DNA from: Halorubrum sp. 2020YC2 | GTDB taxonomy: Archaea; Halobacteriota; Halobacteria; Halobacteriales; Haloferacaceae | NCBI RefSeq assembly: GCF_018623055.1 | Contig: NZ_CP076019.1 | Location: 558,001 to 622,000, forward strand | Length of the DNA: 64,000 nt | Direction of reading: 5' to 3' | Shown here: piece after piece, positions 2,322-17,217 of the stretch | How positions within the stretch are numbered: the stretch's first letter is position 1 | How the letters are laid out: each line of letters begins with the position of its first letter | The notes under the pieces: generated by a model | Database searches by the model: none | What the model saw: only the letters and a program-made list of their open reading frames with translations | What the model was told of the DNA's origin: nothing | Translations under genes and position numbers: made by a program

Positions 2322-3797
2322 TCAGTACGTCTTCGCGAAGTAGGCGGTCCGCTCGGCGGCCTCGTCGCACATCGCGCACGTCTCGTCGTGTTCCCCGCCG
2401 GCGAGGGGGTCGTCGTCCTCGAACGGGACCATCACGATCTCGGCGGCCAGCGGCTCCTTGATCGGCTCCTCGCAGGCCTCGTCGCCGCACCACGGCGCCT
2501 TCACGTAGCCGCCGTGCTGGCCGAGCGTGCCGAGGATGTCGGCCCGGTCGTCGGCCTCGCGCACGCCGTCGTCGAGGGTCTCCTCGGCGGTCGCGTACAG
2601 CTTGGCGTATATCTCGTCGAACTGCTCGCGGACGGTCTCCGGGACGCCGTCGCGGTCGACCTCGACGCTCTCGCCGTCGGGGCGGTGGACGAGGGTGAGT
2701 TCCTCGTCGTCGACCTCGTGGGGACCGATCTCGATCCGGAGCGGAATCCCGTTCAGCTCGTGTTCGTTGAACTTGAACCCGGGGTTGCGCTCGTCGCGGT
2801 CGTCGAGTTCGACCCGGATCCCGGCGTCGTCGAGGTCGTCGGCCACGCCCTCGGCGTACTCCAGCACGTCCTCCTTCGTGTCCTCCTGCCAGATGGGGAC
2901 GACGACGACCTGCGTCGGCGCGACCGTGTGGGGAAGGACGAGGCCCTGCTCGTCGGAGTGCGTCATGATCAGCGCGCCCAGCGCGCGCCACGAGAGCCCC
3001 CACGAGGTGGTGTGGGCGACGCGCTCCTCCTCGTCCTCGTCGGAGTAGGTGATGTCGAACGCCTCCGCGAACGACTGGCCGAGGTGGTGAGAGGTGCCCG
3101 CCTGGACCGACTTCCCGTCGGGCATCAGCGCCTCGACGGTCGTCGTCGTGTCCGCGCCGGGGAACTTGTCGTGGTCCGGTTTCTGCCCCTTCAGAACGGG
3201 GAGCGCCAGCAGGTCCTCGTAGACGGACTCGTACTGGTCGAGCCGCGTCATCGTCTCCGCCCACGCGTCCTCGCTCGTGGCGTGTGCGGTGTGGCCCTCC
3301 TGCCAGAGGAACTCCTTCGTGCGGAAGAACGGCTTCGTCTCGGTCGCCTCCCACCGGACGACGGAACACCACTGGTTCACGCGCAGCGGGAGGTCGCGGT
3401 GGCTGCGGACCCACTGCGAGATGTACGGGGTGATGATCGACTCGGAGGTCGGCCGGACCGCGAGCCGCTCTTCGAGCTCCTTGTTGCCCGCCTCGTCGAC
3501 CCACGCCACCTCGGGGTCGAACCCCTCGACGATCTCCTTCTCGCGCTCGAGGTACGACTCGGGGATAAAGAGGGGGAAGTACGCGTTCTGGACCCCGGTG
3601 TCCTTGAACTTCGCGTCGAGGAAGCCCTGGAGCCGCTCCCAGACCGCGTACGCCCGCGGCCGGGTGACGATGAAGCCGCTCATCCCCTCCGGACCGTAGT
3701 CGGCCAGCCCGGCCTTCCGTACGACCTCGGCGTACCACTCGCCGGTGTTGTGCGTCTTGGACTCGGTGATCCCGAGCTCCTGATCGTCGTCGCTCAT
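2322..3797 (-). CDS. proS: Prolyl-tRNA synthetase
   Basis: This 491-residue class II aminoacyl-tRNA synthetase charges tRNA-Pro. Motif 2 is clear (RWEATETKPFFRTKEFLWQ, about residues 150-170), followed by EGHTAHAT. The anticodon-binding domain follows (VVVVPIWQ onward), and the archaeal/eukaryal-type C-terminal zinc domain holds paired Cys motifs (CGDEAC and CAMC) and ends in a terminal Tyr. The length fits the archaeal-type ProS. The ATG at 3797 lies 26-32 bases after a TTTTAAG box (3823-3829), so a leaderless transcript is likely. Larger frames on the same strand are composition shadows. Confidence 0.97.
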   Translation of the reverse strand: MSDDDQELGITESKTHNTGEWYAEVVRKAGLADYGPEGMSGFIVTRPRAYAVWERLQGFLDAKFKDTGVQNAYFPLFIPESYLEREKEIVEGFDPEVAWVDEAGNKELEERLAVRPTSESIITPYISQWVRSHRDLPLRVNQWCSVVRWEATETKPFFRTKEFLWQEGHTAHATSEDAWAETMTRLDQYESVYEDLLALPVLKGQKPDHDKFPGADTTTTVEALMPDGKSVQAGTSHHLGQSFAEAFDITYSDEDEEERVAHTTSWGLSWRALGALIMTHSDEQGLVLPHTVAPTQVVVVPIWQEDTKEDVLEYAEGVADDLDDAGIRVELDDRDERNPGFKFNEHELNGIPLRIEIGPHEVDDEELTLVHRPDGESVEVDRDGVPETVREQFDEIYAKLYATAEETLDDGVREADDRADILGTLGQHGGYVKAPWCGDEACEEPIKEPLAAEIVMVPFEDDDPLAGGEHDETCAMCDEAAERTAYFAKTY

Positions 3798-14258: not shown

Positions 14259-14345
14259 CTGCCCGCATTACGCCGTGACTGACGTTATATCTGTTGTCGT
14301 CCTCGGGCTCAAATCCGCTCCTGCTCTTCGCTCACTCCGTTCGCT

Positions 14346-14369
14346 CATGCGCGGGACCGGATTCGAACC
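14346..14369 (-). repeat. Detached copy of tRNA-Leu 3' end (distal)
   Basis: These 24 bases match the 3' end of the tRNA-Leu gene and the bases just after it (discriminator base, acceptor strand and T-arm). No other part of a tRNA is present. It is the farthest downstream of two detached copies, 101 bp from the next. Confidence 0.85.
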
Positions 14370-14400
14370 TCGGTCACTCCGCTTCGCTCCGTTCCCTGCT

Positions 14401-14592
14401 TCGAATCCTCGTCGAGATGCCTCTCCTCGCGAATTGCTCGGAGAGGCATGCGCGGGACCGGATTCGAACCGGAAGAAGACGTGCTCACTCGTTTCGCTCG
14501 TTGCGCGCGACTTCCAGGGTTCGAATCCTCGTCGAGATGCCTCTCCTCGCGAATTGCTCGGAGAGGCATGCGCGGGACCGGATTCGAACCGG
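14401..14592 (-). repeat. 120-bp tandem duplication including tRNA-Leu 3' end
   Basis: The 72 bases at 14401-14472 are identical to 14521-14592, a period of 120 bp. The duplicated block holds the tRNA-Leu 3' end (T-arm half and acceptor strand) and a 10-bp hairpin ATGCCTCTCC/GGAGAGGCAT (14417-14426 with 14440-14449, repeated at 14537-14546 with 14560-14569). The second block ends inside the true tRNA gene. The 48 bases between differ from the sequence before the first block. Together with the copy at 14346 this fills the 310-bp gap before the sulfatase-like gene. Confidence 0.9.
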
Positions 14593-14653
14593 CGGACCCC
14601 TACGGGATAGCGTCCTAAGCGCTACGCCTTTGGCCTGGCTCGGCAACCCGCGC
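14569..14653 (-). tRNA. tRNA-Leu (anticodon TAG)
   Basis: This is an 85-nt class II tRNA. Acceptor GCGCGGG pairs with CCCGCGC, with discriminator A at 14569. The D-arm follows, then the anticodon stem TAGCG/CGCTA with loop CTTAGGA giving anticodon TAG (reads CUA). A long variable arm folds as CCC-GTA-GGG, and the T-arm is GCCGG-TTCGAAT-CCGGT. CCA is not encoded. An AT-rich CTATTTTTGAAC box lies about 35 bases upstream on the minus strand. No intron. Downstream its 3' end is repeated twice. Confidence 0.97.
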
Positions 14654-16157: not shown

Positions 16158-16466
16158 GTGTACCGGGCGAGCGACCGGGTCGACAACCAAGCGTGGATCG
16201 AACTCCTCGACGAGGCGTGCGCCTCGCTCGACCTCGACGGGGAGACGCGGTCGACCGCGGTCGACCTCTTCCTCTCTCGCGCCCCCGACGACGACCGCGG
16301 GAAGCGCGTCGCGGCCGCCGCCAGCCTCTACGCCGCCGGCCTGATCCGCGGCGAGGAGCGGTCGCAGTCCGCCGTCGCGGACGCGATGGACGTCTCGCGG
16401 CTCTCCGTCCAGAAGCGGTGGAAGCCGATCTTAGAAGACGCCGGCTTCTCGCCGCCGTCGTGGTGA
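16158..16466 (+). CDS. Minimal TFB-like protein (single cyclin-type domain)
   Basis: This 102-residue protein has RVAAAASLYAAGLIRGEE and SQSAVADAMDVSRLSVQKRW. The latter resembles the helix-turn-helix end of a TFB cyclin repeat (archaeal TFIIB), as found in a family annotated as TFIIB-like in haloarchaea. The zinc ribbon, B-finger and first cyclin repeat are all absent, so it cannot replace TFB and may act as a partner or competitor at promoters (inference). The GTG start at 16158 fits a GTTTATACC box 22-30 bases upstream, suggesting a leaderless mRNA. Confidence 0.7.
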   Translation: MYRASDRVDNQAWIELLDEACASLDLDGETRSTAVDLFLSRAPDDDRGKRVAAAASLYAAGLIRGEERSQSAVADAMDVSRLSVQKRWKPILEDAGFSPPSW

Positions 16467-16532
16467 AGTCCTGAAAACACGCGTACGAACGGCTCTCACG
16501 CGATTCTCCGCCAGAGACCTCGCCGGCGATAG

Positions 16533-16582
16533 ATTTAATATCCAACGTAAAGTCTCCTTTACTGTAAAGCGAGCTTTACAGT
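16533..16582 (+). promoter_or_regulatory. Promoter with double inverted-repeat operator
   Basis: The AT-rich box ATTTAATATC (about 16532-16541) is followed by GTAAAG-tctc-CTTTAC (16547-16562). A perfect 10-2-10 inverted repeat, ACTGTAAAGC-GA-GCTTTACAGT (16561-16582), follows at once. The predicted transcription start falls inside them, so binding would block initiation. All four half-sites share GTAAA. The Xre-type protein encoded downstream is the obvious binder, implying autoregulation (inference). Confidence 0.75.
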
Positions 16583-16609
16583 CGACCCGCTCTCGCTTTA
16601 CCCTCCACC

Positions 16610-17026
16610 ATGAGCGAACACACCACCTCCGCGACGACTCGGCCCTCCACACGGAAACGGTACAAGCGAATCGCGTACGGTCTGCTCGGCGCCGGTATCC
16701 TCGCGCTGTGGGTCGGCATCGCGGTCGACCGCTTCGTCCTCGGCGTGGCCCTGTATTGGGCCGGCGGCCTCGGCATGGGGCTCGTCCAGCGGTTTAGCCC
16801 CGTCGAACTGTACGACGAGCGCGACGGCACCATCAGCCGCAAGGCCAGCGAGAATACGATGAACGGCTTCGCGTACGTCTTCGTCCTGGGCGCGCCCAGC
16901 GGACTCGCCCTAGAGGAGAGCGGCCTCGTCACGCTCCCGGGCGAGTTCTACGGCGCGATGTGGACCCTGTTCGCGGTCTTCGTCGTCTACGGCTCGTCCG
17001 TCCTCTACCACAAGTACCGGACATGA
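16610..17026 (+). CDS. DUF2178-like membrane protein
   Basis: This 138-residue protein has a basic N-terminus (RKRYKRIAYG) and four hydrophobic segments. The central motif LYDERDGTISRKASENTM resembles the DUF2178 signature (DER followed by Ser/Lys/Ala). Function is unknown. It overlaps the following Xre-type regulator gene by 4 bp (ATGA at 17023-17026), which indicates translational coupling. The pair lies behind a double inverted-repeat operator, so expression is probably switched by the regulator. Confidence 0.75.
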   Translation: MSEHTTSATTRPSTRKRYKRIAYGLLGAGILALWVGIAVDRFVLGVALYWAGGLGMGLVQRFSPVELYDERDGTISRKASENTMNGFAYVFVLGAPSGLALEESGLVTLPGEFYGAMWTLFAVFVVYGSSVLYHKYRT

Positions 17027-17217
17027 GGAACGACATCAGCGACCGGCGCGCGGAGACCGGCGAGAGTCAGTCCGACCTCGCCGCCGCCGTCGGGGTCACC
17101 CGCCAGACGATCAACGCTATCGAACGCGAGCGCTACGACCCCTCGCTGGAGCTGGCCTTCAAACTGGCCGCGCACTTCGACTGCCGGATCGAGGACCTGT
17201 TCGACCCGGCCGAGTGA
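17023..17217 (+). CDS. Xre-family HTH transcriptional regulator
   Basis: This 64-residue single-domain regulator contains SQSDLAAAVGVTRQTINAIE, a classical HTH_3 helix-turn-helix, then RYDPSLELAFKLAAHFDCRI EDLF split at its end, as in YozG-like repressors. Such regulators often sit beside DUF2178-type membrane proteins in archaea. The ATG overlaps the preceding stop by 4 bp. The stop abuts the stop of the convergent flpA gene with no spacing. Likely target: the inverted repeats at 16547-16582. Confidence 0.9.
   Translation: MRNDISDRRAETGESQSDLAAAVGVTRQTINAIERERYDPSLELAFKLAAHFDCRIEDLFDPAE

Follow-up and report, generated by a model that had tools for sequence, protein, structure and literature searches.

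We considered a stretch of 64,000 nucleotides of Halorubrum sp. 2020YC2 (hereafter the window), in which a small membrane protein gene and a small regulator gene follow a promoter with two palindromes, arranged as follows:

16528 to 16540, plus strand: BRE/TATA-like promoter element, GATAGATTTAATA, from the sequence and the consensus of 95 aligned promoters
16547 to 16562, no strand: operator palindrome 1, GTAAAGTCTCCTTTAC, with the TATA box on one side and the predicted transcription start on the other
16564 to 16579, no strand: operator palindrome 2, GTAAAGCGAGCTTTAC, across the predicted start and at 17-bp spacing from palindrome 1
16564 to 16573, plus strand: 5' arm of a predicted hairpin in the mRNA leader, GUAAAGCGAG, from its fold and covariation in relatives
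16592 to 16601, plus strand: predicted 3' arm of the hairpin, CUCGCUUUAC, including the half-site CTTTAC at 16596-16601
16610 to 17026, plus strand: DUF2178-like, four-helix membrane protein of 138 aa, overlapping the xre gene by 4 nt (ATGA)
17023 to 17217, plus strand: CylR2-like Xre (HTH_3) regulator of 64 aa, its start overlapping the stop codon of the membrane protein gene (ATGA)

Just 5' of the operator lies a 102-aa ORF (16158-16466) whose only match is to a TFIIB cyclin repeat (24.7 bits) and which is a stand-alone TFB fragment; the same C-terminal sequence is found upstream of the pair in Halorubrum sodomense (L036). Another upstream ORF near the pair is one that we take, by eye, to be endonuclease III-like. 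A tRNA-Leu gene is present on the minus strand (14569-14653) with two partial copies of its end, GCGCGGGACCGGATTCGAACC (window 14340-14653), which lie within repeats of about 100 bp and are possibly scars of integration at the tRNA.

Both palindromes are exact copies of GTAAAGN4CTTTAC, repeated with a 17-bp period and placed after the BRE/TATA-like box and ahead of the start codon of the membrane protein. A preliminary description of this DNA had reported four GTAAA half-sites forming two adjacent inverted repeats, and we recovered the half-sites (GTAAA/TTTAC) at positions 16547, 16558, 16564 and 16575 and the repeats, both exact, at 16547-16562 and 16564-16579; the repeat that it called perfect over 22 bp corresponds to 16561-16582 and consists of two perfect 10-bp arms around a 2-bp non-palindromic centre. 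To these we add a fifth half-site, CTTTAC, at 16596-16601. Searching the window for GTAAAGN4CTTTAC with up to two mismatches gave two matches, both at the operator (shuffles: mean 0.18, maximum 1), and across the 3.06-Mb genome the two palindromes are the only copies with no or one mismatch, base composition predicting about 0.01 per genome. Two-mismatch sites of this genome were considered as further operators and rejected: there were 9 per strand, the true pair counted, against 23 for a control pattern, and they lie mostly within ORFs, so we take them as chance occurrences.

Directly 5' of the palindromes, GATAGATTTAAT provides a TATA-like box with a BRE-like prefix and, when 95 promoters of such gene pairs were aligned on the first palindrome, the consensus GA-AGATTTAT appeared at a fixed position, -19 to -9. 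The spacing between palindromes is 17 bp in all 66 promoters that have two, and in the 95 aligned promoters the half-sites are conserved as letters and not merely as pairing, the N4 being otherwise variable. The distance from TATA box to transcription start has a usual value in archaea, which places the predicted start at about 16561-16565, near the beginning of palindrome 2; the operator covers the stretch between the TATA box and this start, the preliminary description having placed it across the predicted start. In archaeal promoters, a site between TATA box and start blocks the polymerase rather than recruiting it, and the predicted position of the operator fits autorepression. CylR2-type regulators are not known to have been tested in archaea, and two sites that differ in distance might also differ in effect, so that the Xre could be an activator or a dual regulator at the palindromes; however, in all aligned promoters the sites are found downstream of TATA, before the start and across it, and we judge this reading very improbable. 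Scans for sigma-70 promoters and terminators gave no match, such models being irrelevant to archaea.

The two genes overlap by the 4 nt ATGA, in keeping with their earlier description as a coupled pair, and this overlap suggests that they are co-transcribed. The label DUF2178 that had been attached to the membrane protein (PF09946) is weak for this protein taken alone, which scores 17.9 bits, below the cut-off of 22.8; of 41 relatives in the alignment, however, 35 match it with E<=0.01 and several close homologues pass the cut-off, making membership in a wider sense likely. The predicted structure has four helices (pLDDT 89.8). Only M1, D69, E70, R71 and A79 are invariant in 41 homologues, and the resulting DER...A loop, which sits between helices 2 and 3, should be cytoplasmic provided that the basic N-terminus is inside; it looks like a signalling element. 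A Foldseek comparison of the model with solved structures returned nothing similar (best E 3.0), so the basis on which we propose this protein as a partner that may sense or transmit a signal is operon linkage and conservation only.

The second gene encodes the 64-residue regulator expected from the preliminary description, with an HTH_3 domain (PF01381) at 51.4 bits for a cut-off of 23. Its residues 9-61 match CylR2 (1utx) with a phmmer E value of 1.1e-11, and no other domain was found.

Following the objection that the motif might be lacking before homologous pairs, we searched for it in other genomes and found the double palindrome across Halobacteria, nearly invariant 5' of the homologues of the membrane protein in flanking sequence that drifts. 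The 23-bp pattern GTAAAGN4CTTTACNGTAAAG is present in 127 of 391 Halobacteria genomes, and the reversed pattern used as control has 0 matches in every listed genome. We examined 83 distinct sites, collected by DNA pattern alone, and 69 of them are followed at 417-1073 nt by a gene for a CylR2-like Xre, the interval mostly holding one small membrane-protein gene. Within Halorubrum, exactly one motif site occurs in each of the ten genomes with a clear pair and the motif is absent from all nine without a pair homologue, an agreement of pair and motif in 19/19 clear genomes; in two further genomes, where both searches gave a weak homologue, the motif matched on a single strand in one and not at all in the other. 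The 4-nt gene overlap is kept in 76 of 95 pairs. The presence of the same sites before the same gene pair across these salt-loving archaea makes it very probable that a self-repressing, membrane-linked switch is real and widespread.

Departures from the double palindrome were also collected. Some pairs have no exact palindrome or only one site, and two pairs from outside Halobacteria (methanogen; L180 and L187) have a single TGTAAAN6TTTACA site. One clade of pairs (L090, L092, L094 and L099) carries GTAAAACTTATTTTAC and extra half-sites, a variant operator array. At the H. sodomense locus (L036, about 1370-2180) the half-sites, the start codon (ATA for ATG) and the recognition helix (TRRTINAI) are degraded together, apparently a decaying copy of the pair, and such joint decay of operator, start codon and helix is what is expected if the parts are linked.

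Recognition helices of the form (T/S)RQTIN(A/S) mostly go with a GTAAAN6TTTAC operator, (T/S)RQTINAI being the form paired with it. By comparison, regulators with the helix RRETIVFL have a TAACATnATGTTA operator in 5/5 cases (L173, L178, L182, L183 and L185) and GTAAAN6TTTAC in none, and the two helix and operator classes do not overlap. These five DUF2178-Xre pairs would represent a natural change of specificity, from GTAAAG to TAACAT in the operator and from RQTIN to RETIV in the helix. This covariation of recognition helix and operator points to the Xre as the probable binder of the palindromes.

The remaining 14 of the 83 sites do not precede an Xre. Six of them lie after a pair and before a small membrane protein (L119, L120, L121, L123, L129 and L130), which is followed, where inspected, by an ABC ATPase, and a seventh (L055) lies before an ABC ATPase in whose vicinity no Xre was found. 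At five more (L057, L112, L114, L117 and L118) the gene that follows encodes a lipoprotein of about 490 aa, in which a Pfam scan, run on those of L112 and L118, identified DUF3887 and an alpha/beta hydrolase; the last two precede a serine hydrolase of the beta-lactamase family (L157) and a 78-aa protein (L116). In L117 and L118 about 2.8 kb separates the ABC operon from the hydrolase operon, and each has its own operators, the double operators of L118 being at about 219-251 (ABC ATPase) and 3001-3066 (DUF3887 hydrolase lipoprotein). These targets suggest a programme of envelope protection or peptide handling. The earlier qualification of the switch as self-controlled is thus borne out in this genome, where the pair has the sole site cluster, and does not extend to other genera, where the operator also stands before other genes.

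The 14 sites before non-pair genes, eight of which have no Xre in the sequence inspected, would also be compatible with the palindromes belonging to a different and perhaps global regulator, under whose control the pair falls incidentally. Against this stand the single site cluster of the present genome, the co-occurrence of pair and motif in the clear Halorubrum genomes and the variation of the operator along with the recognition helix of the Xre, and we regard the idea as very improbable. A small two-gene operon with a 4-nt overlap and an Xre autoregulator also recalls a toxin-antitoxin system, with the membrane protein as toxin, the Xre as antitoxin and the operator serving ordinary antitoxin autoregulation. 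The Xre does match antitoxin HTH models weakly, but far under their cut-offs, no toxin family is matched, exporters and secreted hydrolases share the operator and the presumably cytoplasmic DER...A loop resembles a signalling element, which leaves a toxin-antitoxin function most unlikely.

Palindrome 2 has a left arm, GTAAAGCGAG, that is able to pair with the complementary CTCGCTTTAC (16592-16601), 8 nt 5' of the start codon, and the leader has a predicted fold of -13.8 kcal/mol (z -3.3). In 37 non-redundant leaders, helix lengths reach 154 for a shuffle mean of 86, above all 2000 shuffles, relatedness of the leaders inflating such tests; palindrome 1 showed no excess in the same test (41 vs 46). 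A mirror control with parallel pairing also exceeded its shuffles, and the shuffle p-values are therefore overstated, the firmer control being to slide the register. For this we used 22 promoters with a third half-site in the same register, which makes alignment fitting unnecessary; this choice fixes the outer six pairs and leaves the N4 free. Pairing at the four N positions was seen in 72.7% of cells, against 25-46% in slid registers; two-sided changes numbered 25 (slid: 2-13) and covariation was 0.61 (slid: 0.07-0.17). Between the N4 of palindrome 1 and that of palindrome 2, the control for palindrome-making mutation, covariation was not found. RNAalifold, applied to leaders that differ in loop length and had been aligned with MAFFT, returned the trivial GTAAAG/CTTTAC hairpin alone, and this alignment was replaced by the gap-free set of in-register leaders; an Rfam scan gave no match. 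We also tried the hairpin as a mark of the 14 other-target promoters and discarded it, the excess not being significant.

As the N4 is otherwise variable, protein binding is a poor account of its pairing, and an RNA hairpin at the 5' end of the mRNA would be the simplest reading, the same arms paired as a DNA cruciform being a possible alternative. The covariation of the left arm of palindrome 2 with the downstream arm could even mean that the conserved feature is mainly this leader hairpin and the palindromes its by-product; however, palindrome 1 is upstream of the predicted start, its N4 lacks such covariation and the half-sites are conserved in letters too, and we consider this extremely improbable. 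It is quite possible, if somewhat doubtful, that palindrome 2 has a dual use: in the DNA it would lie across the start as a repressor site, and in the RNA it would supply the 5' arm of a leader hairpin that is kept by selection and acts on the mRNA carrying it. The wider regulon of the switch would, on this reading, be a programme for protecting the envelope or exporting peptides. If true, a single sequence would govern the transcription of a membrane-coupled archaeal switch as well as the fate of its message, and an operator arm doubling as a hairpin arm would be an unusually economical use of sequence.

Taken together, we propose with high confidence that the locus is a self-repressing, membrane-coupled switch, in which the Xre would directly repress its own promoter and the membrane protein would lift this repression, on the pattern of CylR1/CylR2. 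The computation shows the operator and its conservation, its linkage to Xre, the TATA spacing and the covariation of both helix with operator and the hairpin arms; from these we infer binding, repression, release by the membrane protein, a signal and an effect of the hairpin, in the following way. A dimer of Xre would bind each GTAAAGN4CTTTAC, the half-sites being 10 bp, or one helical turn, apart, and two dimers 17 bp apart would cover the DNA from immediately after the TATA box to slightly beyond the start and exclude RNA polymerase. The membrane protein, which the same mRNA encodes, would sense an envelope-related signal and release or alter the Xre, probably through the invariant cytoplasmic DER...A loop. 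In this genome the sole target would be the pair itself; elsewhere in Halobacteria the same operator would also control an ABC exporter, a DUF3887 hydrolase lipoprotein and a serine hydrolase. At its 5' end the transcript would carry the hairpin formed with the left arm of the operator, which would probably tune mRNA stability or translation.

Among solved structures, the closest in sequence to this Xre is PDB 9k3w (E 1e-14), a 65-aa 'transcriptional regulator, PbsX family' for which a literature search found no paper and whose recognition helix, SRQTINALE, is near-identical. DUF2178 (PF09946)-Xre pairs of non-haloarchaeal Halobacteriota have the gene order and the Xre type of the window pair; they differ in having one palindrome, no recognisable one or the TAACATnATGTTA operator. 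Our literature searches, most subscription papers lying outside them, left this operator and DUF2178 unmentioned. The nearest described system is CylR1/CylR2 of Enterococcus faecalis, in which a 66-aa HTH repressor is joined by a small membrane protein needed for induction (PMC3709268) and CylR2 sits on the promoter, its release being thought to follow a signal from the membrane protein (PMC3709268). The Xre of the window is related to CylR2 in sequence, stand-alone and encoded with a small membrane protein, and conserved inverted repeats lie over its promoter, where CylR2-like binding and repression are predicted. By contrast, the target of the CylR pair is a divergent cytolysin operon, and the window pair would control only itself; no divergent lantibiotic or cytolysin operon was found upstream of the window pair, nor another operator in the genome. 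CylR1 is also described as having three helices (PMC3709268), where four are predicted here, and the window pair has two tandem palindromes and a predicted leader hairpin. It is uncommon for the operator of an archaeal regulator to be assignable from sequence alone. In this case the regulator, its operator, a specificity change, the partner in the membrane and a set of candidate targets are identifiable across an entire archaeal class, and signal passing by a membrane pair of the CylR1/CylR2 type therefore becomes testable in genetically tractable haloarchaea.
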